From Siphonodentalium dalli (taxonomy: Eukaryota; Mollusca; Scaphopoda; Gadilida; Siphonodentaliidae), in contig CP136068.1 in assembly GCA_032622095.1 (NCBI GenBank), positions 125,245,989-125,309,988 of the forward strand: DNA of 64,000 bases. The letters are read 5' to 3'. The notes beneath the pieces were generated by a model. It ran no database searches and was not told the DNA's origin. It was given only the letters and a program-made list of their open reading frames with translations. A program made the position numbers and the translations under genes. How positions within the stretch are numbered: position 1 is the first letter of the stretch; every line of letters begins with the position of its first letter. Below, in pieces: positions 11,245-61,428 of the stretch.

Positions 11245-11479
11245 ATGAGATTCCTCAGCTATTCGATAGCCTGTATCGAGGTATCGCTTGTCACTGGACT
11301 GTACTTCGAATGGAACGAAGATTGCACAGACGGAGGAGATATCATTGCAGTCACAAAAGCTTGGTCTGAAATAAGTTGTGCTGCACAATGTGATGAATCG
11401 CCACAGTGTTATTCGTTTACATACAGCGATGCAGGGTGTCACCACATGAGCGACCTGAGCGGACAGTTCAGAGATATAC
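11245..11479 (+). CDS. Exon 1 of PAN/apple + C-type lectin gene (leader and PAN-like motif)
   Basis: This exon encodes residues 1-78. Residues 1-18 form a moderately hydrophobic leader with an internal Glu, so secretion is plausible but not certain. Residues 27-65 carry C27, C45, C49, C55 and C65 with SCAAQC and CYSFTY. This is the core of a PAN/apple domain, a small extracellular adhesion module. The chosen ATG is the first in frame after a TGA at 11239-11241. The exon ends at a strong donor, TATAC|GTGAGT, after 235 nt (phase 1). That phase matches the acceptor of the lectin exon 30 kb downstream, giving residue 79 as Arg (C+GC). The frame stays open past the donor, but that tail loses domain resemblance. 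The PAN domain is short, so another exon could exist. The start could instead be an internal exon boundary at the CAG ending at 11258. Confidence 0.72.
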
Positions 11480-11689
11480 GTGAGTACATTAGTAAAACAA
11501 CTTCCTCGTTCGAAGAGGGAATAAGCAACATGTACCTAGCTATTAGGTTAGGTGTCAACGTGTTGTTAAATATGAAGAGCAATTATGGTTTCACCTCAAA
11601 CTAACTGCAACACAATGTTTCTCAGTAGGAATAAGTACATTACCCCACCATAAACATCAAACTAAAAATAAAAAAAGATGCAGAAGGGC

Positions 11690-12050
11690 GAATTTTGTGA
11701 AATAAATTTGTCAAAATTATGTAAAAATACTCAATTTATGGCTTTTTAAAGGTAGTTTATAAAAAACTCCATTTCACAAGTCCTTCAATTTTTAATTCTA
11801 TATAGTAGACTGTACAATCCTGATTACAGAACAGAAAACCTTTTCCAGATAGGTTCAGTAACTTCAGTATTTTTCAATTACTTGCCACCAAAATTGGGAG
11901 TTTTGTCTAATTTCGAGCCTCAATCTCCCAGAGTTATCTAAATTCCATATTTATGGTCTAGTTATTGAAAAACTAGAGAAAATTGAAGGGTTTCTTGGCA
12001 TTGTATTAATTTATTCACTAGATTGTGCTCAGAAATGATCACTTTATACT
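11690..12050 (+). repeat. Dispersed repeat, copy 1 (inverted partner at 20270-20530)
   Basis: CAAGTCCTTC, TTACAGAACAGAAAACCTTT and AAATTGGGAGTTTTGTCTAATTTC-like blocks occur here and, in reverse complement and in the same order, at 20270-20530. It is a diverged non-coding family and its termini are not identified. Confidence 0.45.
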
Positions 12051-12065
12051 TAACATTAGACTAAT

Positions 12066-13687
12066 GGATTTTTTTAGATGCATGAAATACTGAATGAGGA
12101 CCAAAATGGTTTTAGACCCGGGAGGTCGTGTTTGGACAATATTTTTATACTGTCGAGCCTTATAAATGGGAAGAAACAGTTATCACAACATTTATTGACT
12201 TCCGTAAAGCGATTGACTGTGTTGACAGGGACATGTTAAGTTCAAGCTACTTAAATGTGGTGTGAATTGTAATATGTACCAATAAATAAGAAGTATATAT
12301 CAGAGCACTTACTCACGCATACGAATAAATGGACTCATATCTGACACATTTGCTTGCAACTTTGGGGGTGAAACAGGGTGACAGTATTGCCACAACGCTC
12401 TTTAATTTGTAAGTTAATGATCTTATTCGTGAACTTAAAGTTCTAAACATTGGGGTTGATTTAGGTGAACATACGATTTCCTCACTTGCTTGTGCCGATG
12501 ATTTTGTTTTGGTAACCGAGAATCAAACTGATATGCAAGTTATGTTAAAGACAGTCGAAAATTGGTGCTGCAAATGCCGTATGACTATCAATATAGATAA
12601 AACTAAACTCGTTCATTTCAGACGTAAATCTGCAGATTTGGCACCCTATACATTTGTTTTTAATAATAGTGTTATACAAATTGAACACAAATACAAGTAT
12701 CTTGAGATCATTTTTCATGAAAATGGAGATTTCAGCATTACTGCAGATACTCTGGCAAAGTCGGCAGGTAGAGCTTTAGGGGCAGTAATATCAAAAATCC
12801 ACACGTATAAAGACATAGGTTTTAAGACATATGAAAAACTCTTTCTTAACTTTGTAAGTTCGATATTGGACTATGCTACAGCGGTTTGGGGCTATACGAA
12901 ATAGCATTGTATAGATATGATTCAATACAGGGCTTTCATGTATTTTTTATGTGTACATAGGTTTTGTCCACTTTTGGCTATATATGGTGAAATTGGTATT
13001 GAGACAAGCAGAATGCGACTTCGGGTGAACATGGCTAGACTTTGGAATCATTTAATAAAACTACCTGGCAATAGACTTGTTACAATTGTTTTTCTATGGG
13101 ATTTTATGGAAAACTCAAATGGTTGGAGTGCATCCTTTGGTAAAATACTTGCTAATGTAAACATGACACAGAATTTTGAATATCTACAAACATGTTGTTT
13201 GAATGTTTTTCAACAGACTCTCACGAGAACAAGAAGAAACCTGGCTACAAAATTTAAACTATGTCCCGAAATTACGCATATACAATTTTTTTTAAATGAC
13301 TTATGCAACTGAGAAATATGTAGATATGATTTTACACAAATCACATCGTTCCATTTTGGCACAATTCCGATGTTCCATTCTCCCTTCAAGGGTAGAAACT
13401 GGACGTTTCAAGAATGAGAAACTCCAAGACCGTATTTGCGTCATATGCGACTTGAACGAGGTTGAAGATTAAACTCACCTTCTCTTGCGTTGCCCTCATT
13501 ATCATGACCTCAGGGTATTACCATTAAAATCTGTACCCAGAATAATCTCTGAAATGGTATTGGAAGGAAAATTTGATGACACACTAGCAGAAATAATATC
13601 TTATCCACGACAATTATCTAAGTATCTCTCCTACGCTTTCGGCAAAAGAAAGAATTATCTATATAAATATAAAAGCTATTGTTAATA
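12066..13687 (+). pseudogene. Decayed LINE reverse transcriptase (clade uncertain)
   Basis: Translation shows RT blocks in order: NEDQNGFRPGRS near 12090, FIDFRKAIDCVDRDML near 12195 (after a frameshift), GVKQGDS near 12366, and ACADDFVLV near 12490, the catalytic A/YADD region. A thumb-like stretch and a C-terminal zinc knuckle, CVIC...H-x4-C, lie near 13440-13490. The frame is broken by at least one frameshift and by stops at about 12409, 12902-12904 and 13470-13472, so it cannot make an enzyme. The knuckle region matches CR1/L2/Jockey-like LINEs by general pattern, but I cannot fix the clade. A short AATAAA-containing tail extends to about 13900. Confidence 0.85.
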
Positions 13688-14027
13688 TTAGTGGTTAATC
13701 CATATGCAATGAATGAGAATGGAAGTTTAATTTTCTTTTAGCTATATTGTGCAGGAATTGATACGCAAAATATTCCTTAAACGTATGCAAACTGATTGAT
13801 ATTAAGCGTGACATATAGGCCTTATTGGCCAGGTGTTTATTGTATTGTCCCCATTATATTGTATTTGATTATGTATACACATGTCACGAAAATAAATGAT
13901 ATCTCTCTCTCTTATGCATCTGTGATTCATAAGACAAAACTATTCTTAAACAAAACGTCTGTTCCATTGTATGGACTTGCCTGTGACAGGGAGCAACTGT
14001 CTCAATCACACTGATGTGAATTTCCAG

Positions 14028-16382
14028 CCTGTTCTCATGTAAATTAGCTCACATTGAACTTATCTCAGAAAAACAAATAGGCCCATATCGGCATGATTTC
14101 AATCTTAAATACGCTTTATATTACTCTAAAATTGACTTACCAGATGTAACATACGCTCTTTATAATGTGTTTCACTGTGGCCCGCGCCATAAAACAGAAT
14201 AACGGGAAAAGTCCACTGTGGGCTCAGTTCATAACCACAAATAAGTCAAAATATGAACGCATGTGAATACTTAGGTCCAATCTGAACCTATTAGCACGAT
14301 GATACGTTGGACTGTCCAACATATCCTCATGCGAATATAATGGCCGGGTTTGTCGTCTCATGTTTAAACCTGGTCTACTTAAACTTCTGTGTTTAAACCG
14401 CATGTTGAAAGCTAAACCCGTAGTTTAAATCAGAGACCGCAGGTCTACGTGACACATTCGTCATCCCTGGTTTAAACCTGGTCTAGCCAAAACAGATGTT
14501 TCACAGTAGTGCCTCTGTATCTTCGAGTTAATTAATCGTACTTTCCTAAACCCGTCGCGTTTTATTGATTGCGAAAATAAATTATCACGACAGCGAGCAT
14601 ATTTTGATTTTGATTTTGAAGCACTAACACATGTAAAGTGTGTGGGGATAAGTTTATGTCAATGTCGATATTTGTTGGTGCGTTTTATGAGCTTAAACCG
14701 GCAAATAAACCATATAATTAGGCGGTCTAGCTAAACCAGTTTTACCGAGGCTAAACCTGATATGACGAATTCTCGATCGCTGTTTAGAATTGTCAGACAT
14801 TCAGAACAATGGTTGGAGTGTAAATGATCTCGAGTGAGATTGTGTCTAAGTGGCGACTGCCGACTGGTGTTATCATGTCACAGTTGATTCATTCCCAATC
14901 GAGGGTTGTTCAGATATGGACACGCTCCTTCAATATGATTTTTACAACTATCTTGTGGCTTTTGTTTGGCTTTTCTACGAATTCATTTGAAAGGTTGAAC
15001 GTTTTAATATTGACAACAAACGATGCCACTACATGACCAGATATGCTATACACGTAACTTGCAATCCTAAAATTATAACTTATAACTTATTTTGATGTAG
15101 ATCATACCACAAAGCTCTACTCTGGCTATGCTCATACATTCCCATAATATTCCAACAGATTAAAGCTTTTTGATTTTCTACCTGTCCCTCTGGTTGCCCA
15201 CTTCCAATAGTTGAGATACCGCTGCTGGTGTGCTATCAAAATGCAAATTGTCTTTACATGACTGACCTCTTGGTCCAGGGTAGACTAGATTATGGAGCCT
15301 TTATTCAGCGTCAGAGGGACATGCGGCCACTTTGTGAGTTAAGAGTCTGCGACACATTTGAACACATTTTGATAATGTTAAAATTTTAATTAAAAAAGAA
15401 AAAATTAATTAATTTGTTTTTACTTCTTAGATTAAACTCCTTACTCAATTTAACGCTATTTGTTCATTTAAGAAAACGAAATTTCCTTATTTTTAAATCA
15501 AAATTTCGAAAACCTAACGCCGTTATACAATCCGACACCACATCTAATTTGGTTGAAATGGGTGCAGGGGTCTCGAAGAAAAGTTGCGAACAGACAAGAT
15601 ATATCCTATACTCTTTTATATATTTATGCATGTAAATACACCAAGTTTTGTCTTTTCGGGTAAAGCATCTTGCAGAAAATCTACCACAAACAAAGTGATG
15701 AACAGCGAAACTCGTGTTGAGAGAAATGCCCTCTGTCAGGTTGATCTAACATAATGAAATAAGATTAGTGGTCCATGAGCGATACTTGTTTCTCAAAGAA
15801 TATATTCCATGCGCGTGCACGCGTTCGCCATAATTTATGGCCTGTCGATAAGCATTATATCGGCATGTTGTTTTGGTCCGATTGGTAACACGGTAGTTTG
15901 ACTGCATGCTCATACCACCGAGTAGAGTTGTCAGTTAGCTGGCAACTGAACGACAAAAATGCCCTCTTAGAACCGGTCGGCTGGACTGCCAATGTAGATT
16001 TAAACCAGGTTTAAACTCGGAGGTTTAAATCGGATATGACGAATCCGGCCTATAGGTTCCTGTTGGACGTACATATTCACATATATTCATATGAAACATA
16101 TTTGATTTTTTTTTAAATAAGCCCATTGTGACCCTATACCCGTTGAAAACAAGCTATAAAGAGCGTGAATCTGGTAAGTTGTGTCTATGAAAAAAGGTAA
16201 AATAAATGATGCCAATGTGTGAAGATTTCACATGGAAATATATTCCCACATTGGACAGTTTAAAACACGCGTTTAGTAGTAGTATTTATTTGTCGTGTTA
16301 CGTCCTTATAGAGCATATCATGAGGTAAAATGGTGCTAATATGAGCGTATTTTGCTGATTAAAATAGAAGAGAACAGGCTGG
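14028..16382. mobile_element. CAGCCTGTTCTC-family element split by a later insertion
   Basis: The left end CAGCCTGTTCTC (14028) and right end GAGAACAGGCTG (ending about 16381) are inverted repeats. The left part holds TTTCACTGTGGCCCGCGCC and ATAACGGG as in the other copies. Without the 14342-16050 insertion it would be about 650 bp. No clear target duplication was found. Confidence 0.55.
14342..16050. mobile_element. GGCCGG-ended TIR element nested in the previous one
   Basis: The left end GGCCGGGTTTGTCGTCTC and the right end ATATGACGAATCCGGCC are imperfect inverted repeats. Subterminal GTTTAAACC motifs are repeated at both ends and at 14465-14480. An internal sequence near 14750-14770 (GCTAAACCTGATATGACGAA) resembles the right terminus, suggesting a shorter MITE fused to extra sequence. 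There is no transposase frame. No certain target duplication was found; TATA-like bases flank both sides. Confidence 0.5.
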
Positions 16383-16597
16383 ACTACTAACAATGGCTAG
16401 AAAATAACTGTCAGAAGTGAATCGAATCAATCTGAATTACATATATATACACCAACTCAGATGACTAAATATGTTAGTGACATAACACCTATAAGGTATC
16501 CAAGTATGGTATAGTGACTGCTTGTTATCAGAACTGGATTGACGAAATGTTATATTTTAGGTCATACTTATATACAACTCAATAAATTGATATATAT

Positions 16598-18728
16598 CTA
16601 TATGTATATTTGCTAATGTCTGTCTGTCTGTCGGTCTGTCTCTGTTCTATACAAATTCACAGGGTACCACCTATATGGCACAAAAGGGGTCTAATAGGGG
16701 TACCTTTTTACGAGAAAGATAATGGTGAGGGTTAGAAGTTTCTAAAGTGACGCCGTTGTTGTCAGGGGCAGAAAAGGGGGAGGGAAAAAAAATAATTGTC
16801 AATTGGTGCCGATTACCACCAAACTTATATATAATCATCCCCATAACACGAGAAATCTAATGGTGCTGTTTAAATATGCCAAAAGTCGCGCCGTTCGCGT
16901 CAGGGATGCCTGGAAGGGGAGAGGGGTACCAAAATAGTTTAAAAATAATTTTAGCGCCGAATTTCACCAAATTGATACACAGTCAATTACCACCAAACTC
17001 ATACACGTTCTTCTCAAATGATATAATGAATCAAATATTTGCGAATATATGTCTGTTTTCTATATATAACTTTAAGGGTACAATTGAGATGGCACCAAGG
17101 CGGTCCAACAGGGGTAACTTCTTACGAGTAAGATAATAGTGCGGGTTAAAATTTTCTAAAGTGACGTTGTTGGTGTCAGGGGAGGGGCTATTTTTAGCAT
17201 AGATTTCGACCAAATTGATATATTATTCTTCTCCGCGATAAGAGAAATATAAACGTGTGATTTCAAGATCCGAAATTGGTGCCGTTTGGGTGAGATGGGG
17301 AGGGGGGGGGGGGGGGTAATAACTATGATAAGAATTTGTTTAGTTGCCGATTACCGCCAAAAAATCATCTCCATTATGTAATGCATGTATGAGTCTAATA
17401 GACGTGGTTTAAATATGACAAAAGTGACGTGGTTCAAATCATGCATGAGGGGAGTTGCACCAAAGTTGATACAAATATAATTAGCACTGATTCTACCAAA
17501 TTAATGCACGTTCTCCTCTAATGATATGATGAATTAAATCACATTTGGGGTCGTTTGGGTCATGGATGGCGAGAGGAGATTCACTAGCATTTATAAGATT
17601 GTTCAATTCGCCGATATCCAACAAAGTTATATATAGTCATCTCCCAGGCCATCTCCATGTCGTTCTAAGGAGTTTTTGGCATTCCAATTTCACAATCTCG
17701 ACAACTGGTGACCGATTTAAGTCAATTGAACAATTATATATTTTCTCTCAACTGTTATGTTTATATGGGGATGGAGATCAGGGCATTCCGACAATGTTCT
17801 AGCAACACAGATACATAGAAGAAAGCATTAAAAGTATATTTATATCAATATAGTTAAGAGATACATATATTCATTCAAACTGAGGGACCTTGAATCGTCA
17901 GAGGATTGCATATTAGAATGACTCATGTATATATTATAACACGATTGAGTCTGTCCCATTCAATATAGTTTCCACAAAAAAGTTACAATTGCCAAGAGAT
18001 ATTGAAATGTAGAGCAGGCCTGTCAAAAATTGTGGTCACAGTGTGCAGTCAAATATGGTTACTTCTGAGATAAAGTAAAACGCAGTCCGTAGCACATGAC
18101 ATTTCGGAATCATCCAATATTGACATCTGACAAGGGTATATCTGCCCGATACAGAGGATTTCTTTCATTTTTGTTAGAACAGACTCATCACCTAACATAA
18201 ACAACTCAAAATCTCGCTGTGTCGGGCACATGTGGCTGCTATACGAGCATAACATCAATTCTTTTAAACTGAAAATGATTAGGCAGTATATAGCACCAAA
18301 ACAGAGGAGCACATGGACATATCTTTAAAACATCTGTATCTTCATGAAGATATGATAAACTAGATTGATTGATTGATTGATTGATACATCTCTGTGTAAA
18401 ACACAATTGTCGTCTTTTATTTTTTCGAACTAATATGTTTATGATGTTAATGTTTCATCCTATAACGTCTAAGTATACGCAGTTGTAAATAAATAAATAC
18501 TTCTTTATTGGTGGGACAGATTAAACGCGATAAACAAAATGATAATTGTTCCGACCTGACAAGGTGAGCCACTACTTATAAGAATCATGTTTTGTGATGC
18601 CATTTGGATTTACAATTTATGAGAATACGTGTAACACTTTGAGAGCAAGGGTATTCTCTATTCCCACCAAATATCCGCAGAGGGATTTACATCACTTTAA
18701 CCTGGGCAACGCCGGGTAACCCTGCTAG
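16598..18728 (+). mobile_element. Non-autonomous Helitron-like element B (inverted copy of A)
   Basis: It begins with (TGTC)n at about 16616-16640 and a block shared with 9480-9670. It runs through the same internal units in the opposite orientation to element A and ends CAACGCCGGGTAACCCTGCTAG followed by T. The terminal hairpin and CTAG-T are as in Helitrons. It lacks the 1.58 kb internal duplication, so it is about half as long as A. Confidence 0.75.
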
Positions 18729-18734
18729 TATATA

Positions 18735-19247
18735 TATATATATGCCTACTTAATTTAGAAGGAGGTATAATATAGATTGATATATACACGAAATATATTG
18801 ACATACCAGCTTCATGTGCTCCGAAAAATACTTGCAATTATCTCAGCCATTTTCCAGCTGTTTTAAAGTTTTCACACAGAAGTGAAACAAACTCTCAAAT
18901 TTGGTATGTAAGCCTACTTTGGTCCCGGTAACAATATGGGCGGATCCAATTTCACGTGCACCGTGTCCTTGATATTGACCTCGGTCATATACGCTCATGA
19001 AGGCATGTTTCTGGATCTCGACCAATTCGACTCAAATTTGGTTTGTAGGCCTACTTTGATCCTGGTCGGGTCCTATTCCACGTGCGACCGTGTCCTTGAC
19101 CTTGACCTCGCGCATATACGCTGATAAAGTGCATGTTTCTGGACCGATCAAAAATAGTTTATCCAGACGCTGTATATTCTATCAGAAGAAGGCTATATCA
19201 CAAACAAATACGTATATAGCCCGGACGAAGTCGCGCACATCAGCTAG
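18735..19247 (+). mobile_element. Helitron-like fragment ending CTAG-T, with ~110-bp repeats
   Basis: It ends GCCCGGACGAAGTCGCGCAC...CAGCTAG followed by T (CTAG at 19244-19247). Two internal copies of a unit carry GGCATGTTTCTGGA, CAAATTTGGT and TGACCTTGACC-like motifs. The same terminus closes elements at 51011, 60634 and 61012. It abuts element B, so the two form a tandem pair. Confidence 0.65.
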
Positions 19248-19325
19248 TATGTCCCATACATACGCACTGAAGTCTGTGGCCATGGCCAATATTTTTGTCT
19301 GAGCATAATTATGCAGATGGTATAT

Positions 19326-19483
19326 ACACAGAACGACACGATGTGTAAATCAGTTTGTCGATACGGCACGAGTGCTGTCACGGAAGGATAGAACGAGAGG
19401 CGCTTGCGCCTCGAGTTCTATCCTTCCGCGACAGCACGAGTGCCGTATCGACAAACTCATTTACTCACCGTGTCGTTCTGTGT
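19326..19483. repeat. 158-bp near-perfect hairpin
   Basis: The left arm starts ACACAGAACGACACG and the right arm ends CGTGTCGTTCTGTGT. The centre is GAGGCGCTTGCGCCTC at about 19395-19412. A few mismatches separate the arms. A further inverted pair, TTTATTACACGCTT (19483-19496) and AAGCGTGTAATAAAT (19723-19737), follows, so the hairpin may be one end of a larger foldback element. Confidence 0.8.
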
Positions 19484-19739
19484 TTATTACACGCTTCGCG
19501 CCCTAGAATCCGTGCATTAAAAATACAGGATTAGAAGGTTTATTTAGGCTCATACAGGGCGTGTTTGTCATGTGTGATGATTCTTTTATTTAAACAGTTC
19601 CAGTTTCATGGTTGAGGCGAACGTCATGTACGTCATTTTACGTCAACGAGATACGTATGGAACGTACGTTCCATACGGATTTGTAAATATGGAACAGCAA
19701 TAACGCTGTACTTCTAGAAGCAAGCGTGTAATAAATCAA

Positions 19740-20269
19740 TATTTCGTGCATTTCTCAACCCATCTTATACATCCTTCCAAATCTCGTAGACAGAATTTGG
19801 AAGCTCAAATGGGTCATATCCATCTAAACAAAATTTGACTATGCCAACATGTGTCACTGGATTTCACAGAATTTTTCAAGAAAATGACTCCATGTTTGAA
19901 CGTTGGTAATGGGGTAGGTGAACTCGCAGATGTTATCATGTCACCATAATTACAAATTAAACGCTCATTGTTTTGCTAAGTATGCACAATAACCTTTAAA
20001 ATAGACAACATCTCTCCAAAAATGCATTTTGGGAGAGCAAATTCTAAGGATTCATCAGGCCATAAGATATTTTTGTTCTTTACCATTTTTTTGGGGAAAA
20101 TTCCTTCACGATGTGTTTAACCATCGTGTATATATTAAGTGGTTGTGTGGAATACAGGGCATATTGATATCAATCTTGAGTTGTAGGATCTCAAATATCG
20201 TATTTGATCATGCTGGATCTGGGTCACAGTCAAAAAAGTATGGTCTTCTCAATCATAGGGTCACAAAAT
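19740..20269. other. No recognisable feature
   Basis: AT-rich intronic sequence. Small open frames lack domain signals. Confidence 0.4.
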
Positions 20270-20530
20270 AAATCATTTTGTGCACAAACAAGAGAGAAAA
20301 TTGCTAAAGCAACAAAAACCCCTTTATTAATCTCGAATTGCTAAAATACTTGAACATAAAATATGGAGTTCTAATAAAATTTTGGCTCAGAAATTAAACA
20401 AACTCCAAATTGTGAGGGCACATTACTCGAACAATACTCAAAATAGTCAAGAAAGGTTTTCTGTTCTGTGATTAGTACTTCACAAAATTGAAATGGAAGG
20501 ACTTCGCGGCTTGAGTTCCAACTTGTCCTA
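20270..20530 (-). repeat. Dispersed repeat, copy 2
   Basis: This is the reverse-complement partner of 11690-12050: GGTTTTCTGTTCTGTGATTA and GGAAGGACTT are its anchor blocks. It is diverged. Confidence 0.45.
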
Positions 20531-21655
20531 AGTGAATTTTCTATGTTAACCGAGATAAAAAAAATGTCAAAGTTTGGAAATCTGGAGCGAGCTTATCAGA
20601 TGGATTATAAGGTTCGCTCTAACTCCAAAAAATGTATATCCTTTCACTCAAACCAATCCATATTGCCGATACAGTAACGCTTCTTCCTTAACATACAATG
20701 GAATGAATGTTATGTGAAAATATGCGCAATTGGAACAATGTAGAATGAAATTGTTTGCCATATTGATTGGATTGGATTCAGAAGTAATATTCGCAATCCG
20801 CCTGTAAATATGGTAAAATAACACAAATAGTGCCTAATTTATTATTATGCTAGAACGTTTTTTGTTTCTCTGCGGTGACCGCCTTTACATTGGAAGGTAT
20901 ATTATGAGCTGGTATGAGTTCATTCTTTAAGCGCGCCGAACAATGTGCGATAAATATATGCATGAATCAGTATATTATTATTAACAATAAGCTGTGGACA
21001 AGCAACCGATACATACTTATTTATGCACATTTATATGTTGATTGCAGGTTGCTCGGCCTGGCACACATTACATATTAACCTGTTTTTAATATACATAAGA
21101 ATGTGGTTGAATAATTGGGCCTTATTTGTCAAAATCAAAGATTGGACAATATCCCGAACCTTTATGGCGCCATGACGTGTGAACATACCCCAGCATAAAT
21201 CATATATGTATATCACACACAACATCAATAGAAAATAGGATAATTTTACTTGACTGAATAAGTAATCATAAATTGGCTATTAAAAAGGACGCCACACATA
21301 ACCACTGACGGCATTGGAACATAGACTATGTATATTTTGTTCCAATAGACTTATAGAAGACGAAAAGCACTTTCCTTTAGAATGCAGCGGTTACGACACA
21401 CCACGTATTGAGCACATCAACCATATGCAGCTACATTTCCAAGACATCAAAAGCATGCCCTTAATTGAATAGCTTGTCAAAAACTTCAATCCAATAATAT
21501 TCCAAATATATGCAGTTATATGATATGATCCACATATTATTCTCGGCATGCGACGAGCATCGCATACCAGACTTATAGACGTCACCAATTTAGGAACTTT
21601 AAACCAACATTTTGTATTGATTATGGGGCTCCTGCCCATACTCCCCACTTTAAAT
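20531..21655. other. No recognisable feature
   Basis: AT-rich intronic sequence without motifs that I can assign. Confidence 0.4.
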
Positions 21656-21975
21656 TATACCATTATGTTACTTATATAACGGAAACATCATTATATAAGT
21701 TCGCAGGAATTACACGATAAAAACGTTTTTATAAATGGTGGTGCTCCTCAATCAACCACGTCCGACTCCGGCCATGCCACCGTGGTAACTTTGAATCAAA
21801 CCATAGATGCATTGTACACTAGAGATGACAACATATACGTTTGCTGGAAATCGACGACAAAAATGTTTTGTCAATTGTTTGCTCCTTCCGATCCCCGTTC
21901 CTGAGATGGATGGCACCATATATGTATCTCTAAACCACACCATTAGAATCACAATAGCATATATACACTTTGTGG
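21656..21975 (-). mobile_element. Fragment of Helitron A/B family
   Basis: GAAATCGACGACAAAAATG, TTTGTCAATT, and AACCACACCATTAGAATC match the ~170-bp internal units of elements A and B. No termini are present. Confidence 0.55.
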
Positions 21976-22788
21976 TAGAACTGGTTTGTGTTATTCCGAT
22001 ATAATCGTCGATCTGTTCTGTGTCAACATTTTATCTTGGCAACAATAACTAATTGTTCCATATCTGGATGCTTTCTCTTTTTTATTTCTGATCAATTGAG
22101 AGAGAGTTTTATGCTTACAATATACACGTCTTTTGTATATCATATTAAATAGATCATTGGCGGGGTTGCACAGCATACAAGCATCCATGGAGCCATTTCT
22201 TATGGCAAGAAAACACTGAAATCGATACTTAACTCCCGACACTGGTAACGTTCATGAGATGATTTTTTGTGTGTGCAGTGTCTGTTTGACAAGCAACGTT
22301 ATGCAATACATGGTCATGTCAATCGAACGCCAATGAACATGTTTATGGACATTACAGCTACTTGAAACAAAGGGCCGGCTCTTATTCGTATATTGTTCAC
22401 GATGCTCCGATCTGATATTATATGAGTTCTCCACATAGATGCCTCATACATCGCAAGCCTGTATTTCACACTTACGATTGTCTGGGAAGAATTATTTTAG
22501 GCAGAACTATTGATCGGACTTCTAATTTTGCATGGCATTCATGGGTACTCAATCTCACGATCACATTAATTATTCAAGTGTACTAGGCATCATACTTATA
22601 AACCTTTAGAAATGGCAACAATACTAGTCTCTATCGACTGGATCAGTAAAAGGCGACACTTGCCATTCGATATAGGTGATTATGCATATGTCGTGGTGAG
22701 GCTGCATGAAGTTGCCTCTACTCTTATCGATAAGTCAACATGCACATACAGACAATACGTTCACGAATTAAAGTCTGCAAGTAACAGT

Positions 22789-22812
22789 ATTATTATTATT
22801 ATTATTATTATA
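22789..22812. repeat. (ATT)n microsatellite
   Basis: A short perfect trinucleotide run. Confidence 0.9.
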
Positions 22813-22949
22813 TATACATTTAAAACGCATTCCACAATAAATTTGTTTCAATGCGCGTACATCGAGTGGTTAAAAATCTAATTATTTAAAAGACACACGA
22901 GCAACAAAGATAAAATGTTAAAAATTCTCATAGGATAAAAAGATGACTT

Positions 22950-47356: not shown

Positions 47357-47460
47357 GCGATATACAAGATCTTCAACTCGTTTGATAAATTTGATTCACA
47401 ACTCGTCTACGACTCTTTGTGAATCAAATTTATCAAACTCGTTTCATAAAATCTTATATC
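47357..47460. repeat. 104-bp hairpin
   Basis: GCGATATACAAGATCTTC with CTCGTTTGATAAATTTGATT pairs with AATCAAATTTATCAAACTCG ending ATCTTATATC. The loop is CTCGTCTACGACTC. Confidence 0.8.
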
Positions 47461-47488
47461 CCAACATAACTCGTTGGAGATCCTCTAT

Positions 47489-47740: not shown

Positions 47741-48187
47741 TTAATTTGACAATTTACCATAGAATTAGCCACGTTCCCATGGTGACAATATGATTTCCCG
47801 GTAGGTGTTACGATTCATATGTTTCTGAATGGTCGAAACTAGTATTATTCGTAACTGAAAAATACATCTTAGTTCTTATGTTACGATCATACTTTTGATG
47901 AAATGTAAATCCTCAATGCATAAAGTGATAGACAATGCTTATAATGTGTTCGCCTTTCACTAACTACTGTATAAATATGGCTGTAAATAAAAAACAATAC
48001 TAGTAATAGCTGATAAGCCAACCCATCACTATTCAGTAATGAGTAATACTAATTTCGACCATTCTAAAACATGAATCGACATGTCCTTTTAAGCCATAAA
48101 AAGAACAAAGCTACATGTTTCACAGTTAAAACTCAAATTTATGTACATGTAAAAGTAAAATATCTTAACGGCATACTTTTTGGTAAC
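47741..48187. other. No recognisable feature
   Basis: AT-rich intronic sequence between repeats. Confidence 0.4.
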
Positions 48188-48194
48188 ATGTAAG

Positions 48195-49557: not shown

Positions 49558-50372
49558 CATGTAAGGCGTCAAATTGTTCAGTCACTTGTAAACACAGTTT
49601 TTGTTTTAACAGGTGAATCCGTACATCACGACAATACAGTACAAGTCTGAAGAAGTGGTATTTTTAGGCGCACCTTTATTGCGATATTGAGCGTGCTTAA
49701 TTTAGAAAAAAGCATGATTATAGCACACTACCAAAAATCTGTCGTGCTTATTATTGCAATATTGAATGCAAAATACTAAGCGCGCTAAATTTCGTACAGA
49801 CCCGATAGTGTTATATTTATATTAGATAAATACTTAGTCCAAGTCTTCTCGTACTAAAACTAGCTAAGATTTTGGGATGGAGATGCTAGTGTTTAGTCCG
49901 AGTTCCAGGCCCATGCATTTCTATGACACGAGTTACGCCCAGGATCTGTGGCGGGAATCTGTGGTGTATTTTACTCGATTTACCTAACAAAGCAATACAT
50001 GATGCTATATACATCGGAAAGAGTGACATCTTATGGTCATAATGGTGTATAATAATCTAACTTTAATGTTAAATTACACATAGAATATTCCGGTTGATTG
50101 CCACAAACATCGTTGTTTTTTCTGTTTGTTTACTTAACTGAAAGCCGAACTCAGGTTCCGAAGAACTTCGGCATTGTCCGGTGTTTATTTTGGCCGAGAC
50201 GAATTTCGATACAAACAAAATGGCGGCCCCCATGATATTCTAATGGTCATTGTGTTTACACTGTTTTAAACTGTGAGATGGTTACAAGAAAACTAAGATG
50301 CATGCATCAGGTCGGCCGTGAACTATCTACCATAGAATTGTTGTAGCTATCGATTATACATTTTGGAACACC

Positions 50373-51011
50373 TGTCTGTATGTATGTGTGTATGCATGAA
50401 TGCATGTGTGTATGTGTTATAGACTCTAACAATGCTCGATTGATCCGACTCGGATTTGGTATTTAACGTGTCAACTTGACCTCGCTCATAGGCATGTTTC
50501 TGGACCTTGACCGATCCGACTAAAAAAATGTGTGTAGGACTACTACGATCCCGGGAGCAATATGGACGGGTCCAATTTCACGTGGGACCATGTTCTCGAA
50601 CGTGCTGATGTAGGCATGTTTCTGGACTATTTGGACGGGTCAAATCTTGATCCCGACCTGACTTTGACATTCAAAAAGATCAATTCAAGGTCAAATCTGG
50701 TAAAACGGAAGTATTTCAACGAAATATAATACCTACTGTTACTTTTGTCCCGGGAGTGTTTCGGTTGGGTCAAATTATGACCCTGACCTGATCTTGACAT
50801 TCAAAATTGTCAATTCAAGGTCAAATCGGGTAAAGCTGGGCGGATTTCGACGGGTATTTTTGTCGTGACTTTTGTCCGGGGAGTGTTTTGGACGGGTCAA
50901 ATCGTGACCCGACATGACGTTCACCTTTAAAATGGTCAATTCAAGGTTAAATCGCGCAATTCTCCGAAAATCAGAGGGGAACATCCCGGACGAAGTAGGG
51001 TCCACCAGCTA
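50373..51011 (+). mobile_element. Helitron-like fragment with ~110-bp repeats
   Basis: It begins with CTGTCTGTATGTATGTGTG and has units with GTCCCGGGAGTGTTT, GGTCAAAT and CAATTCAAGGTCAAAT. It ends ATCCCGGACGAAGTAGGGTC...CAGCTAC, where CTAG has become CTAC. It is the same family as 18735-19247 and 59884-61012. Confidence 0.65.
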
Positions 51012-51199
51012 CTATTATATATTTCTAGATTTAGTTACAAACTAAATACCTGTATATTGTACAAAGAAATGTTTGACAAATATATCTGTATCAATATTAC
51101 CATACGGGTCATTAAAATAGATACGACGAAACAAATTTTGAAGGGTGCATGGTATCAGGTAAATTTTTATATTTCAAATGATGACAGGAATGCGGAAAG

Positions 51200-52560
51200 T
51201 TGAAGTACCTACGTAATACTGACTATCCGAATGAAGAGATATATATGTATATAAAAACCAAAATAGAAGATGACTGCTGGCGACAATGTTTTCCAAAAAA
51301 ATTCAAAGCATTCGATAGCTCCCATCTAGTTGTCAGCCCGAAGATCAATATAAAGTGTGGTGACTATCAGATGAGGGATATGACTGTACAGTTGCTAAAC
51401 AATTCAGTCACGCAAAAGAGGATCAAACAGTAAGATACCAAATTGCTACCTGTGGTAATGTTTTTTAACGAAATTCGGGAAAATTAGATTACTCTCACCC
51501 TGGTTATCCAGAAGATCATTGTGGAATCTGGTGACGATCGGACAAGGGGTGTCGTCTGTAGGATCAACCAAATTATTTAGCCATAAAAATAGTAAAATTC
51601 CAGATCACCGCTGGCAGTGATGTCTTCACAAGGACAGCTTGAGAACAAAACATGGCTCACATCTAGCGGTGACCCAAACTATCCACGTGAGAAAAAGTTC
51701 TCCAATAAAAGCTGGCTGCAGGGTGCGCCAATTGATTCAAATTCGAAATTTAACAGGGTGTACTGCTTGTGGCCATGTTTTCCCCGCATATTTGATAGAC
51801 TTATGGACAAAACCACTGAATCCGTTGAATCAATATACATGTATACATGGATTAATTTATATGCATTGTTATACACAGTACTGGTATATAAAGGTACTGA
51901 AAATAACAATATTACTAGTATACACAAAATAAACCATATATCATGGCTATGGGTTCTAATATCCGAATATCACAGCTGATAACTTGGTGTGAATTGAAGA
52001 GTGGTGGTGTCTCCAGCATATCTAACCCTCCACGTTAGAAACATGCCATTAAATGTCATAAGTATAATCTAGCTTGAGGACAGAAGTTATCCATAAAACC
52101 CCCCTTAATTCAACCAGGTCCTCGCGTGATGTATGGTCGATCACATGATGATCTAGGGGGGCTTATAATTGTTGTATAAAAACAGCACTGCATGTAAATA
52201 TAAAATAAAATAGTGCTACATCTTATTACAGATTATTGCCATATATAATCAGTGACTATACAGACAGTCTGACAAAATAAAGTTTCAGTGACACTCTATC
52301 CGAAGAGGGGAATAATTCCATCTGTTACAGTCAATGGAGCAATTATGAATCTGGAAAGGTGAAATTTCTAACTAATACTAGATATCGACATGACGCGATA
52401 ACATATAACGTAAATGCAATATGGCCGCTGGCAACCATTTTTTCCTATAAAATTAAAAAAATATTTGATAGCTCTCATCTGATATCAATATCAAGATAAA
52501 TATCAAGTTTAGTGATGATCGGATGAGTGAAGTGGACTGTGCTAAACGGTTTAGTAATGC
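51200..52560 (-). repeat. ~180-bp repeats, orientation 2, degraded
   Basis: GATAGCTCCCATCTAG, GGCGACAATG, TGATCGGATGAG and AATATGGCCGCTGG are the complements of the units at 42641-43470. They are interspersed with unassigned sequence, including 51600-52300 where no further repeat is recognised. Confidence 0.5.
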
Positions 52561-52860
52561 TTAAAAAGATTTTTACCTTAATATTTTTATGTTCACTTTA
52601 TAAACTTCACTGAGTCATCTTTGTCATGTATTGAGTTTGATATCTTTTGTTAACAGTTTATAAATCATGTATGTCTCATGTTTGTTATTTTAATTTATGT
52701 GTTTATTATCATTAAATAAAGTTGCATTCCTTAAAAAGATTCTTACCTCAATGTTTTTATGTTCACTTTATAAACTCCACTGAGTCATCTTTGTCATGTA
52801 TTGAATTTGATATCTTTTGTTAACAGTTTATAAATTATGTATGTCTCGTGTTCGTTATTA
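52559..52860 (+). repeat. Tandem duplication of a ~171-bp unit
   Basis: CTTAAAAAGATT(C)TTACC, TTTTTATGTTCACTTTATAA, TGAGTCATCTTTGTCATG and AACAGTTTATAAAT occur twice with an offset of about 171 bp. The first copy ends with an AATAAAG-containing tail, so this may be a duplicated retroelement 3' end. Confidence 0.75.
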
Positions 52861-53944
52861 TATTATATACACTTTATAGTGTGTTTCAGAACTAAAACAA
52901 AATGAATAAAATCAACAAATTTGTAAATTTAAAAACAATTCAAACGTTGTTGTATTCCATGTCCCAGCCCGGACATATACACCAAATTTCAATAATATTC
53001 ATTGAGAAACAACGGACCAAACGCCATATAACACCCCGCATGCATCTTTTATTCCGAGTTGGCCTTTTATTCCGAGTTGGCACTCGCCGATTGGGGCGAG
53101 TTAGCCCTGAGGCGAGTACACCGATTCCGACACCTTTTCTATTTGCAGCAGGTTAAGTTTACGCGTAATTTAATACACAAAGTTCCCCAATTGGTATCGT
53201 AAATAGAGCGACCTTATTTGACAGAGAATGCCTCTGTTATTGATTATAAAGTTGCTATACATTAAAAACGATAATTCACATGCTCGTTCAAGCGCAGTAG
53301 TCTATTTTCCCCATGTTAAAGGACATCCACAAATACTAAATAACGCTAACTTACTGCCGAATGTTTTACACGACAACTGTTAACATATTTGGGCTGAATT
53401 CATCTGACGCGGTATTATTCCTCAAAATAAACAACAAAACCATCGTTACTTGGAAATGTAGTTTGGGCTAACATTTACATAAATCCTCCATATCATTATT
53501 CCGACACACACGTCAGATGAAAAACTCACATGAAGTAACCGGCCAAATTGGCCGAAATAATTCCCGTAATTTATTTAATGTATTACATTTATATCTTCAA
53601 TATGTATTTAATATATGTATTTATATATTTATTGTCACGTATAATTACGATTACAATGGAGAATTCATCGTGCGTGGTTGATTGAAAATCTACGGAATAT
53701 TTTCACCGGAAAATGCCGAACGCAGTTCGCAAGGTCAACTGAGTTCGCATACTTTAAAAAATATGTAAACACTGCGGCAAAAGTTTCTTTTCACATTAAA
53801 TTACCGCTTTCAATTCACAACCGATGTGGGTTTCAGATCAAATAGCATGTCTTCTGCGGAAACTATCCGTTTATTGTAGCAATTGTGATATTTTATTTCA
53901 TATAATTGTGGTTTTATTTGAGCGGGTCACTAACGCTTAAGTCG
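52861..53944. other. No recognisable gene
   Basis: AT-rich core of the long-TIR composite. Short repeats of TTTTATTCCGAGTTGGC at about 53046-53080. No domain is visible. Confidence 0.4.
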
Positions 53945-54329
53945 TGTCATAGAAATGCATGGGCCTGGAACTCGGACTAAACACTAGCATCTCCATCCCA
54001 AAATCTTAGCTAGTTTTAGTACGAGAAGACTTGGACTAATAAATACTGTGCATATATTGTACATATAGCATTTACAACTATAATTATATACATATCTAAA
54101 ACATTGTCTCTATTTATACAATAAACAATATAGAAGAAGCAATAATTTGATTTAAATGTCACATTTTGAGCGCAAGTTGTCGCAATATTAAGCGCAAAAT
54201 ATTGAGATATTAAGCGCAAAATATTGGAATAATATCACAAATGACATGCTTATAAGCGTTTCCACTTGCAATATTATTGCGATATTGGCGCGAAAAGAGC
54301 TTAATATACCACTTCTTTTGACTGGTACT

Positions 54330-56229
54330 TTATATCAATAACAGCTAGTTGGGATTGGAACCTTCAAGACAACAGAAGATCCCATAATAACTGCGCAATG
54401 ACCTGGCGACAATGTTCTCCTGTCGTCGCACATTTTCCATGAAATTTTAAAGCATGATGCACCAAACTGTATACTGGTATCACAACCACTTAGTGTCAAT
54501 ATCAGTGAGTCAGCCAAAGATAGTTTGGTAAGAACATCCAACCAATAGTGTACTCCCGGTAAATTGTCGTAATTACTTGACGATAACATGGCGAATGATG
54601 ACGATGTCTCATATCCACACGTTTCAATGAAAATTGATGGACACAGGATTAATTGGTCCGTGTAATTGTAAAGTTGGAATTGTAGATATGTGATCGTCCG
54701 TCACTGCGCGGCGTCAGTTCATTGTTTACGGTGTTGTTGTTGACACTGAAGCGCTGGTGAATTACACTGGTGCATACAGTACATGTACATGCATATCCTC
54801 TCTTGTAAATGTACATGCATGTGCTTTGAAACAATCAGATTCAGAACACTGTCAACTGGATTGTCAACATTCTAATAACGAACCAAAGTCGGACGCTTTG
54901 GGTCGTATATAGACTATATTTGATTTTGTGACGTCACCAATTATTATCTAATATGACGCTGTTGTTTTTAATTTCGGGAGCGCGAATGTTTTACAGTAGA
55001 TCGGTGGGCTTGAATCATTAATGTCGTAATCGGCTGTCAAGAGGCCAACCCAAATCAGTTGACGTGCAACATTCTCCTATTTATATAAACGTCATAAAAT
55101 CATTTATTTGTTTTTATTTATTAGGGAAAGTAGGTCCATAATGAATTTCTAACGGGTCTACTCCGGAACTCTACTGGATCAAATCATCGGACCCTAGGAA
55201 GTTTTAATATTTTTTTTAATAAACTAAAATCACCGCAACTCAACACGATCTACGTGTGTCTCAAAGCTTCATTTTCCAACTGATGCACAGCAGTTGATCA
55301 ATACTGCAAAGTTATGTAGAGACTATACCGTGCGAAAGGAAATGAGATAATATTTACTATGGATTTGATTGTTATCATAAGTCTGCATACTTACATGCAT
55401 CTGATAATCCATGTATATCCTATTTTCTTGAATAGAATGAAAACACATACGTATGAACAAAGCAGAAGATACATTCAGTTCAACGCGAATTCAGTCAATG
55501 GTGAAAGTTATACGATGACGTTGTTTGTCGACTATCGTTGAAATCGACATGATGACATGTTATAAATGAATTAAAATAACATCCTGAGTATCTGAAGCGG
55601 AGATCTCCCCAGCACGCCAAGTATTATGGCCTATAGTGGTTAGTTTCAGTTTCATGTGCTCTCGACAACATATATAACTATTTATAATTACCACACCAAA
55701 CAAAAGCCTTATACATTTAAATCTTATTTGGTGGGAATCTATAAAGTGATTTTGATAAGAATTGTTTTAAACTCTACATGCAGAAACCCCATATGTGATT
55801 GTTTTAGCTTTGGTTCGTTAATTACGCTTGCGTATGATCATATTAGTAATACCTGATCGCTGAGTCGTTGTTATTATTGTCACTATTGGTTGACATCGAA
55901 GCTCGTGTCAATTGTACCTGTACCCGCTTGTGTCAGTAAATGTGCCAGTGTTTTGATACTAAGTCACAACACTGTCAATTTCAACATCATCGCTGAGTCG
56001 AATGAAGTCAGACCCCGGATCGTGCCATGAATCGATTGGTATGAATCTGTGCTCTCTAATTTAGTGGAAATTGTCAATGATTAAGCCTGTATATTATATA
56101 CATATTAAATATCAGCAGAGTAAGTTTCAGTCATATTGTATGGAGTATTGCCGTATATAATATGGTCGCCGATAAATGTACTTTGACTTTGAATCACGAA
56201 AATATTTAATTTAGACAATTTTCATGGGT
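54330..56229. other. No recognisable gene
   Basis: About 1.9 kb of AT-rich intronic sequence. Short frames lack motifs. No repeat family from elsewhere in the window is recognised. Confidence 0.45.
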
Positions 56230-56335
56230 ACATAAAATAACGGTAAAATACCGTCAAACTGATGAAACGGTATGGGACCGTCGATAATGACGGTCCGAAA
56301 CTGTCGAACCGACAATAATTTCTAACATTGTACGC
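56230..56335. repeat. GACGGT/ACCGTC-rich end, inverse partner of 47489
   Basis: AATACCGTCAAACTG, ATGACGGTCCG and ATTTCTAACATTGT resemble the complement of the sequence at 47489-47740. Confidence 0.35.
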
Positions 56336-56728
56336 AATATATACTGTTGACGCACTTATCTGTACGTTTGGGCACGTATATGAATATCATAACACTATTG
56401 ACTCGAAAGTCGCATTCATCACGTTATACCAGTAACTGTTAGAGAACATTATTACTGTACGCTCGCATTCTGACATTTTCGTTACACGTGATAATACTTT
56501 TGTCACAAAGTAATTTTACTTTTATATATATTCACACAGTCGAGTTAAAAAGTTCGCCAGATCAAGTCTCAAGCTTTGGTCTTGCTTGACCTTGTTAAGA
56601 AATTGATTGGCAATTACATCTTATTAAACATGAGTAATATATAATAAATATAGCCCCCAGATGACCGTAATCGACAGGGCTGATTCAAATACTTTTAAAC
56701 CTGTTTAATTGTTAAAAGAGTCGGATGC

Positions 56729-56734
<6 letters not shown>

Positions 56735-56761
<27 letters not shown>

Positions 56762-56776
56762 GGGAGAGAGGGAGAG
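56735..56776. repeat. (GA)n microsatellite
   Basis: A dinucleotide run with a few interruptions, directly upstream of the duplicated segment at 56834. Confidence 0.9.
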
Positions 56777-56833
56777 AGACAGACAGAAAGAATCGGGAGT
56801 GAATGCGAGAGAGCAAAAGAAAGAGTGAGAGAG

Positions 56834-57824
56834 TGTCCGATAGTACACAAGATAGTATAGTTATTGTTATATGTTTTCCCGAATATAGGATAAACTTCCT
56901 TTCCCCAGTGATTGTAACTGCTAGGGTTAATTGCATAGATAAGCACAATACATGGCAGACATAAATTATATAGTGCAAGAGCACGCAAGCAAAATTAACA
57001 AGATTATATTCTTAATTGGTTATGACTGGTAGCTACCATTGTATGAGTGAGGGAGAATCAGACCAGTATCATTGTACTTATCGACAGAGACTTACTGATA
57101 CAAATATAAAGTTATCAAAACCTATGGAATCTTTATTGTTTACTGTTTACCAGACTCGCCATGGATAAATAACTCTATTTTCGTTTGAATATCCATGTGT
57201 TGATTGTTTTCAGGTTCGCGACTCGCGATTATATATCCTAGATCCAACTCTCTTCTGTACACTCGGATTTAATCAAATTTTAGTTCCCACTACTTGGAAA
57301 CTCTGAACGGAGGGGACTCTGTCCGATAGTACACAAGATAGTATATTTATTGTTATATGTTTTCCAGAATATAGGATCAACTTCCTTCCCCAGTGATTGT
57401 AACTGCTATGGTTAATTGTATAGATAAGCACAATACATGGGAGACATAAATTGTATAGTGTAAGAGCACACAAGCATAATTAACAAGATCATATTCTTAA
57501 TTGGTTATGACTTGTAGCTACCATTGTATGAGTGAGGGAGAATCAGACTAGTATCATTATATAGTAAGCTATAGAACGATACACGTCATAAACAAGAGTA
57601 TCGTGGTATCTCAGACCTTATATGGATACGTGATACCACCGACACTAGGAAATAACTACCCGTTCTCTGTATCGGGGAGTTCTCTTATCCGGGAACCTTG
57701 CTACCACCAACACCTCTGTTCGTCCACCAATATATTGTGCTTATCGACAGAGACTTACTGATACAAATATAAAGTTATCAAAACCTATGGAATCTTTATT
57801 GTTTATTGTTCCCGTACTCGGCCA
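56834..57824. repeat. Direct duplication, possibly a TRIM-like element
   Basis: A segment starting TGTCCGATAGTACACAAGAT is present at 56834-57161 and again from 57320. The second copy is interrupted by about 180 bp at 57560-57738. Both copies share CCTATGGAATCTTTATTG near their ends and then close with CTCG(G)CCA. Between them is a 158-bp spacer that ends in GGAGGGGAC, directly before the second copy. TG...CA ends and a purine-rich tract would fit a miniature LTR retroelement, but no target duplication is seen. Confidence 0.45.
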
Positions 57825-57865
57825 ACTGCACCTTCAACACTAGATACATCGGGACAAGATCAGCG

Positions 57866-57941
<76 letters not shown>

Positions 57942-57945
57942 CGAA
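57866..57945. repeat. (GA)n microsatellite, ~80 bp
   Basis: A long GA tract with few interruptions. A second shorter tract follows to about 57974. Confidence 0.92.
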
Positions 57946-58179
57946 CTAGAGAGAGGGAGAACTAGAGAGAGAGGGTGAATATGATGGTGTGCGTGTGCCT
58001 GAATGCATAGTACACGAATGAGTAGCGACTTTATGTTATTCCTTTCCTTGTGATGTAACTTTGTTTTGTATTAACTTGTACATGTATATATGTTGACATA
58101 TCTGTGTCCATGTTTATGTGTGTTTATGTTCTGTATTCAATAACTCGTCGCATATATATATATAGCTATATATATCTCC

Positions 58180-58971
58180 TATATATTTTGAGACTTCCGT
58201 ATATAAATATATATATGTGTGTGTGTGTGTACTTTATAGAATCGAAAACGGCTGGTCATATCGAGCTCAAACTTGCCATCTAAGGGTAAAAATCCACGGG
58301 AATGGTCATCGTTGCGTTTTGGACAAGCTCTGAGCACTCATTCTCCACTCCCAATAATCAAAATTACCGCAAACGGTACTGCGGGAGTTAATCGCGTTGA
58401 TAGTTAAAGAGCGTTCCTATCCGCAGTGTAATTGATAAAGAGCGTATATGCGTAATGTGATTCTTACGTCTGTACACGGGCGTCAGCGTAGGTTACCATA
58501 CATGAGCGTGTTGTGTGATTCTTACGTACTTAGGACTTCCTAGGAACGGGGATCGGGTCAGTTTTTCCGCCCTAGGTGATCTTCACCTTGAAGCGGGTAC
58601 CCACAAATGATATATATGTGTGTGTCCTTTATAGACTCGAACCGATTGAGCTCAAACTTGCTACCTACGGGAAGTGTCATGGGCGGGTTAAATTGTGACC
58701 CCGACATGACCTTGACCTTGAAATGATCAATTCAATGTCAAATCGGGTAAAATTGAACAACAAAAAACTCATTGAAAAAATTAAATTAAACAATTAATTA
58801 AAAAAATTAATTAAAAAATCCAGTAAATTAAAAATGCACAATTAACTCATTGAAAAACAAAAAATAAATTATAAAAAGCCACAATTAACTCATTGAAAAA
58901 CAAAAAATTAAATAAAAAAATTAATTAAAAAAATTAATTAAAAAACGGGCTAACCTGCTACTCTATAATAT
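58180..58971 (+). mobile_element. Helitron-like array, unit 1
   Basis: It starts ATATATTTTGAGACTTCCGT and ends GGGCTAACCTGCTAC (CTAG mutated to CTAC). It contains ATCGAGCTCAAACTTGCC and TGACCTTGACCTTGAAATG. The 3' part has AATTAACTCATTGAAAA repeats. Confidence 0.65.
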
Positions 58972-59883
58972 ATTTTGAGAACTACGTATATATATATATA
59001 TAGACTCCAAAACGGCTGGCTCGATTGAGCTCAAACTTCCCATCTACCGGTAAAAATTCACGGGAATGTTCGTCGATGCATTTTGGAGAAGCTCTGAGCA
59101 CTCATTCTCCACTCCCAATAATCAAAACCACCGTCCTCGGCACTTCGGGTGTTAATGCAGTCACGCTCTTTATATTGACCAAATTTGGCGTTGTTAACCG
59201 AGTAACGCTCTTTATTGCCATCGGCGTTGCTAAACGGTCACCTATGCGTACGAAACTGCGGATGCAAAACGCACCGGACCGGAATGCATTTATCTTGATT
59301 AAAAAGGCAGAATTAACTCATTGGAAAACAACAAATGCGTGCCGTGTGATTCTTATGTCTGTCGTTCCTAGGAACGGGGGAGATTTTCATCGAATCACAA
59401 AACGCACCGGAACCGGAATGCATTTATCTTGATTAAAAAGGCAGAATTAACTCATTGGAAAACAACAAATGCGTGTGATTCTTATGTCTGTCGTTCCTGG
59501 GAACGGGGAAGATTTTCATCGAATCATACCTCTTTTACGGACGGGGGAGAATTTCATCGGGTCAGTTTTTCCGCCCTAGGAACGGGTACGATCATTTCTT
59601 TTGACTAAAAAGGCAGAATTAACTCATTGAAAAACAAAAAAATTAATTAAAACAAAAAATGCGTGTTGTGTGATTCTTATGTCTGTCGTTCATAGGAAGG
59701 GTGTGATTTTCATCGGGTCAGTTTTTCCGCCCGATGTACCGTAAATCATACCTCTTTTAGGGACGGGTACCATCATTTATCTTGATTAAAAAGGCAGAAT
59801 TAACTCATTGAAAAAAAAAAAAAATTAAAAAAGACAGAATTAAAAAAAAAAAATCTGACCAACCACGCGGGCTAACCTGCTAG
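58972..59883 (+). mobile_element. Helitron-like array, unit 2
   Basis: It starts CTATAATATATTTTGAGAAC directly after unit 1 and ends GGGCTAACCTGCTAG followed by T. It contains several units of TGTGATTCTTATGTCTGTCG, TTTTCATCG and GGCAGAATTAACTCATTG. An open frame at 59025-59432 is a by-product of these repeats. Confidence 0.7.
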
Positions 59884-60634
59884 TCTGCTATATATTTTGA
59901 AAGATCTGTGTGTCTGTCTGTGTGTTCGCGATGGACTCGAAAACGACCGAACCGATATCGATGAAACTTGGTATGTGGGGGTACTTTCGGCCGTGGAGTG
60001 GCATGGGTCTGTTAATTTGCCCGTGCGACGTGACCTTGACCTTGAAATCGGGTCATTTCAAGGTCAAACGCCCGAATATCACGGGATTTCGATGAAACTT
60101 GGTATGTGGGATACTTTCGGCCGGGGAGTGGCATTGGCCTATTAATTTGCCCATGCGACGTGACCTTGACCTTGAAGTCGGGTCATTTCAAGGTCAAACG
60201 CCTGAATATCATGGGATTTCGATGAAAATTAGTGTCTAGGGATACTTTCGTATGGGGAGTCTCATAAGCCTATTCATTTGCCCGTGCGACATGACCTTGA
60301 CCTTGAAATCGGGTCAATTCACGGTCAAATCGCTAATTTTGATGGGATTTCCACGAAATTTGATACATAGGGTTACTTTTGTCCACTGAGTGTTTTGGAC
60401 GGGTCAAATCGTTACCCCGACCTGACCTTGACCTTCAAAATTATCAATTCAAGGTCAAATCGGGTAAAACCGGATGGATTTTGACCGGTACTTTTGTCGG
60501 GTACTTTTGTCCGGGCAGTGTTTTGGACGGGTCAAATCGTGACCCCACCTGACCTTCAAAATGGACATTTCAAGGTAAACTCGCGCAATTCGCCGAGGGG
60601 AAACAGCCCGGACGAAGTCGGGTCCACCTGCTAG
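59884..60634 (+). mobile_element. Helitron-like array, unit 3
   Basis: It starts TCTGCTATATATTTTGAAAG followed by TCTGTCTGTG and ends GCCCGGACGAAGTCGGGTCC...CTGCTAG followed by T. About five ~125-bp repeats have TGACCTTGACCTTGAA and TTCAAGGTCAAA. Confidence 0.75.
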
Positions 60635-61012
60635 TCTAATATATATTTTGGGACTTCTGTTTGTTTGTCTGTTTGTCTGTTAGCTATGGCCGGGAAAACT
60701 GCCAGACGGATTTTGACGAAATTTGATACCTACGGTTACTTTTGTCCAGGGAGTGTTTTGGACGGGTCAAATCGTAACCCCGACCAGACCTTGACCTTCA
60801 AAATGGTCAATTCAAGGTCAAATCGGGTAAAACCTGACGGATTTCGACGGGTAATTTTGTCCGGTACTTTTGTCCGGGGAGTGTTTTGGACGGGTCAAAT
60901 CGTGACCTCGACCTGACCTTGACCTTCAAACTGGTCAATTCAAGGTCAAATCGCGCAATTCGCCGAAAAGCAGAGGGGAAACAGCCCGGACGAAGTCGGG
61001 TCCACCAGCTAT
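60635..61012 (+). mobile_element. Helitron-like array, unit 4
   Basis: It starts TCTAATATATATTTTGGGAC followed by TTTGTCTG and ends GCCCGGACGAAGTCGGGTCC...CAGCTAT (CTAG mutated). Two to three AGGTCA-bearing repeats. It lies 183 bp upstream of exon 3. Confidence 0.7.
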
Positions 61013-61195
61013 TATATATATATTGCAGTCATATGAATGCGAGTTATTCACCACTACTGTGTGAACATTCTTGATCTTTCGTGACACTCATTTGAGAGAG
61101 AAATAGCTATAGCTCGAACATGGGGGTGGAACAGTTGTCACCCTGCGGTTGAGTTCAGTTGAGTATAGTTCGATGTGTGCCATTTTTCTCTTCAG

Positions 61196-61428
61196 AATAC
61201 TCATCGGGTTGTGACTACTTCATGGATGGCTCTGACGCAGGCCACACCTGGACGTGGACGTACTCGGACGGCAGTAACGTCGCATGGATGAATTGGTTAT
61301 CCGGAGAGCCCGGCAATTCAAACGAGCATTGCCTCATAATATGGTGTGATCGATCGTGGCAAGTGATCGACACCTACTGCAATAATCTGTCCTTTAAGAG
61401 GAGCTATATCTGTGAAATCGATATCTGA
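61196..61428 (+). CDS. Exon 3 of PAN/apple + C-type lectin gene (CTLD C-terminal half)
   Basis: This exon encodes residues 140-216 and the TGA stop at 61426-61428. The acceptor is TTTTTCTCTTCAG|AA, entered in phase 1. It shows YFMDGSD in place of the usual WIGL region, WTWTYSDGS (the W-x-W...DG strand), VAWMNW, GEPGNSNEHC, W194, C201 and a closing SYICE. C113-C212 and C185-C201 would be the two conserved disulfides. C145 and C190 could add another. The calcium/sugar site is atypical: EPN reads EPG, and the WND motif before C201 reads WQVIDTYC. The product is probably a small secreted protein of about 24 kDa with a PAN-like module and one CTLD. Ligand and role (immunity, shell matrix or adhesion) are unknown. 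Confidence 0.9.

Follow-up and report, generated by a model that had tools for sequence, protein, structure and literature searches.

The window, by which is meant the whole 64,000-nucleotide stretch at C8:125245989-125309988, is best explained by a real gene of three exons that encodes a small, probably secreted protein with one PAN domain and one C-type lectin-like domain (CTLD). A probability of about 85% is assigned to this reading, in which the gene belongs to a dispersed family, has long transposon-bearing introns, and would serve a soluble recognition role. The joined exons give 651 nt in a single frame of 216 codons plus TGA, with coordinates as placed in the preliminary description. 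GT/AG was found at four of four splice sites, both introns are phase 1, and the gene model and its domain order (PAN, CTLD first half, CTLD second half) were upheld. As judged from sequence comparison, the three-exon model is firm because a paralog has the same layout, dN/dS values point to purifying selection, and one copy of each exon type is present in the window.

Gene model

The features of the window gene and of related loci are collected in Table 1.

Table 1. Features of the window and partial PAN and CTLD loci elsewhere in the genome (window positions are counted from its first nucleotide)
Feature	Position	Strand	Description
uORF	11230..11241	+	Four codons (ATG GAC ATT TGA = MDI*), in frame, just 5' of start codon; direct sequence reading
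Exon 1	11245..11479	+	Start ATG, hydrophobic leader (~residues 1-18), PAN domain, phase-1 donor AC/GTGAGT
PAN domain core (residues 30-78)	11332..11478	+	C45, C49, C55, C65; Pfam PAN_1
Intron 1	11480..41687	+	30,208 nt, phase 1
LINE reverse-transcriptase fragment	12413-12901	+	Intron 1; RVT_1 1.7e-7
LINE reverse-transcriptase ORF	22939-24876	+	Intron 1; 646 aa, RVT_1 4.2e-14 plus zf-RVT
Exon 2	41688..41870	+	CTLD first half (C83, C96, C113); tandem acceptor, alternative start 41697
Intron 2	41871..61195	+	19,325 nt, phase 1
Exon 3	61196..61428	+	CTLD second half, EPG motif, WQVID; stop TGA 61426-61428
Possible poly(A) signal	61818..61823	+	First AATAAA past stop; consensus match only
Partial locus	C7:90.16 Mb		SP+PAN, phase-1 donor; strongly diverged first half of a CTLD at a distance of 5 kb, phase-1 acceptor
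Partial locus	C8:42.34 Mb		SP+PAN, phase-1 donor; CTLD second half 25 kb on, phase-1 acceptor
Partial locus	C8:170.12 Mb		SP+PAN, phase-1 donor; CTLD first half 12 kb on, phase-1 acceptor
Candidate loci	C3:188.99 and C4:281.21 Mb		Splice reading covers PAN donors only

The start codon at 11245 and the exon 1 donor align with eight paralogous SP+PAN exons. The splice positions of the window gene are kept in relatives. Conversion of an ancestral ATG into a stop codon was considered and rejected, since ATG 11245 aligns with the family start; the start of the sister gene described below lies three codons farther upstream than this family-aligned ATG. Rfam and tRNA scans gave no matches.

The exon 2 acceptor reads TTTCAG followed by GCACGTCAG and then GATGTCCC, and the exon can begin at 41688 or at 41697, each in frame, so that the protein would have 216 or 213 aa. 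In three relatives TTTCAG immediately precedes the homolog of GATGTCCC, i.e. their acceptor is the second position. The window copy therefore appears to be 9 nt longer by gain, the insertion being apparently private to it in comparison with these three relatives.

Sister gene and selection

A search of the genome (2.23 Gb in nine contigs) with the product identified a sister gene on the same chromosome, at C8:148987332-148997641, in which three homologous exons lie in the same order and on one strand within 10.3 kb, separated by introns of ~6 and ~4 kb. Its exons of 244, 174, and 233 nt also sum to 651 nt, are joined at homologous phase-1 sites, and encode 216 codons plus stop. Identity to the window exons is 68% for PAN, 69% for the CTLD first half, and 66% for the CTLD second half. 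The sister PAN scores 19.4 bits, just under the Pfam cut-off of 21.4, and Lectin_C was not reported for the sister. All three window exons are under purifying selection against the sister gene, with dN/dS values of 0.26, 0.42, and 0.22 for exons 1, 2, and 3 (0.285 overall) at a silent divergence of 0.65; the differences by codon position number 42, 30, and 67.

The arrangement is not due to chance, because each exon has homologs in the genome and the paralog repeats both the layout and the joined length. A rough estimate, in which the close PAN and CTLD-N exons number ~13 and 4, predicts ~4e-4 same-strand PAN/CTLD-N pairs within 31 kb in 2.2 Gb; two were found. A compact paralog can thus support, without RNA, a gene whose long introns stretch it to tens of kilobases. 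Inverted partial copies of CTLD exons were also observed near the window gene (C8:125214753-125214863, - strand) and near the sister gene (C8:149040819-149040992, - strand), which suggests local duplication and decay.

Were the PAN exon to have its partners elsewhere and the CTLD exons to form an independent gene with its own 5' exon, the window would hold two neighboring genes or their leftovers. The 30 kb of intron 1 would be in keeping with this, as would two closely related CTLD exon pairs (C8:125.08 Mb; C7:97.51 Mb), near which no family PAN exon was detected in the searches. Such a division is nevertheless very improbable given the equivalent three exons and equal joined length of the compact sister gene, the position of the sister PAN as the closest relative of the window PAN (68% versus 42-50% for other PANs), and the presence in the window of exactly one copy per exon type, profiles of the three types having detected no alternative PAN or CTLD exon above noise. 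It is likewise improbable that the gene is a decaying copy, once intact and now poorly expressed owing to its very long introns, the uORF, and the 9-nt acceptor change. The reading frame and every splice site are intact, either exon 2 acceptor preserves the frame, and the combined CTLD exons give dN/dS values of 0.16-0.30 against three relatives; these outweigh the uORF at 11230, the 9-nt insertion, and an extra lone cysteine (C27) that is private to the window copy and absent from the paralogs, all of which would fit decay. An intact three-exon gene is preferred to either explanation.

Domains of the predicted protein

The product would consist of a leader peptide, one four-cysteine PAN domain, and one CTLD, with a mass of ~22 kDa after cleavage. 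The leader has an 11-residue mean hydropathy of 1.8 from residue 8 and occupies a position common to nine paralogs, from which the secretion assumed in the preliminary description is likely. Its two domain assignments were confirmed with Pfam, PAN_1 (PF00024) matching residues 30-79 at 23.8 bits (cut-off 21.4, E 4.1e-5) and Lectin_C (PF00059) matching residues 107-213 at 32.9 bits (cut-off 22.6, E 1.2e-7).

The PAN core cysteines C45, C49, C55, and C65 are invariant in nine paralogs and are predicted to form two inner disulfides. The outer disulfide that links the N- and C-terminal ends in the six-cysteine apple subtype was not found in this PAN domain; with only the four core cysteines and the lone C27, it was not assigned to that subtype. 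Four-cysteine PAN modules are known, for example the HGF N-domain. A single-sequence AlphaFold2 model of exon 1 alone had a pLDDT of 48 and was of insufficient quality to be used.

The CTLD contains eight cysteines, including the long-form set, and from their positions the pairs would be C83/C96, C113/C212, and C185/C201. An extra subfamily pair, C145/C190, is kept in four of four close CTLD relatives. Neither a canonical EPN or QPD motif nor WND was found in the CTLD, which has EPG and WQVID instead. By position, three of the five site-2 ligands are kept (E177, E183, and D198) and two asparagines are replaced (G179 and I197). With only three of the five canonical Ca2+/sugar ligands, it is doubtful that mannose is bound in the classical way, and from the residues present a ligand that is non-canonical or a protein seems equally likely. 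In bivalve lectins the EPN and WND motifs often vary, and some lectins with such variants are still Ca2+-dependent (PMC12842671), so that loss of sugar binding can at most be inferred for the CTLD described here.

The PAN domain may contact proteins or glycans, and ligand binding may fall to the CTLD. By analogy with the domains of other proteins, the most likely role is recognition in innate defense or in mucus, the protein being soluble, secreted, and of an innate-immune or mucus-lectin type.

PAN and CTLD exons elsewhere in the genome

Among the best matches listed, a CTLD exon lies up to 60 kb downstream of a PAN exon in the same orientation eight times; by comparison, among these matches the CTLD exon is upstream on the same strand once and downstream on the opposite strand twice. 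Besides the window gene, the only complete and verified PAN-CTLD gene is that at C8:148.99 Mb, and the other loci are partial. Up to five of these (Table 1) have a signal-peptide/PAN exon and then a CTLD exon, the phase having been checked at both ends in three. At C7:90.16 Mb the CTLD first half gave only 0.089 with Pfam Lectin_C. C8:180.21 Mb was rejected as a third complete triad and the pair at C8:160.36 Mb as a direct join; in both cases the PAN donor looks phase 0 versus phase 1 for the CTLD acceptors, and these loci were therefore left out of the direct joins. Dense clusters of PAN exons, with no CTLD exons among the matches listed, occur at C8:8.04-8.58 Mb and 142.3-144.4 Mb and perhaps represent a separate PAN expansion.

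The loci provide exon-level evidence for the reuse of one SP+PAN exon ahead of CTLD exons, and the two related CTLDs near which the searches detected no family PAN exon (C8:125.08 Mb; C7:97.51 Mb) imply that a lectin half need not be accompanied by PAN. A wider reading, which we put forward tentatively and consider possible rather than probable, is a lineage-expanded family of modular recognition proteins in which exon shuffling would have combined one phase-1 SP+PAN exon with divergent CTLD exons, such as the CTLD half that follows the PAN exon at C7:90.16 Mb, some CTLD members being PAN-less.

Introns and repeats

The exon distances of 30 and 19 kb given in the preliminary description are correct (30.2 and 19.3 kb), but they do not constitute a special feature of the gene. 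Genome-wide, the two halves of CTLD pairs are spaced 0.9-29 kb apart (n=56); the window pair, at 19.5 kb, is near the top of this range and within it. Since this spacing lies inside the genome range and LINE remains are present in intron 1, the 50 kb span is unremarkable here and reflects long introns carrying transposon remains.

Other repeats were noted in and around the gene. An ORF of 125-127 aa in intron 2 (51596-51976, + strand) recurs nearly identically at L066:6438-6812 (+ strand), a site of this chromosome that lies ~220 kb farther upstream, and is probably part of an interspersed repeat. Tandem arrays lie near exons 2 and 3 at 40819-41276 (~180 bp unit), 42725-43164 (~164 bp), and 59954-60556 (~130 bp). 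Just past the gene, at 61514-61602, is an imperfect inverted repeat with arms of ~37 bp that by eye resembles a small MITE-like hairpin.

Comparison with known lectins

The preliminary description had regarded a PAN module joined to a single CTLD as uncommon. This is not supported, in view of the further loci in the genome, the complete sister gene, and a named class of C. elegans proteins, and the window gene is an ordinary member of an already known PAN plus CTLD kind. Protein databases probably list PAN_1 plus Lectin_C proteins in several animal phyla. The best PDB sequence matches of the second half of the protein are CTLDs of C-type mannose receptor 2 (E 5.7e-8). The likeness is one of sequence; this receptor is a membrane protein with several CTLDs and lacks a PAN domain.

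In the literature searched, no paper was found on PAN with a single CTLD in molluscs. Mollusc lectins such as codakine and the CgCLec series are small, secreted, and equipped with one CTLD (PMC12842671), as the window protein is small, probably secreted, and equipped with one CTLD. The lectins in that review are depicted as a signal peptide and one or more CTLDs, some with a transmembrane region, whereas the window protein adds PAN; the review does not mention a PAN domain, 'PAN' occurring in it only as an author name (PMC12842671).

According to a survey of nematode lectins, the pairing of CTLD and PAN had been reported earlier, and a named class comprises 16 proteins of C. elegans in which 1-2 CTLDs are accompanied by 1-2 CW (PAN-3) domains (Table 2 of PMC5297725). 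These class IV proteins, like the window protein, combine a PAN-type module with one or two CTLDs (PMC5297725). Theirs is of the PAN_3/CW subtype and that of the window protein is PAN_1; the likeness is one of architecture. The window gene provides a well-supported further example of the PAN plus CTLD architecture, here with PAN_1.
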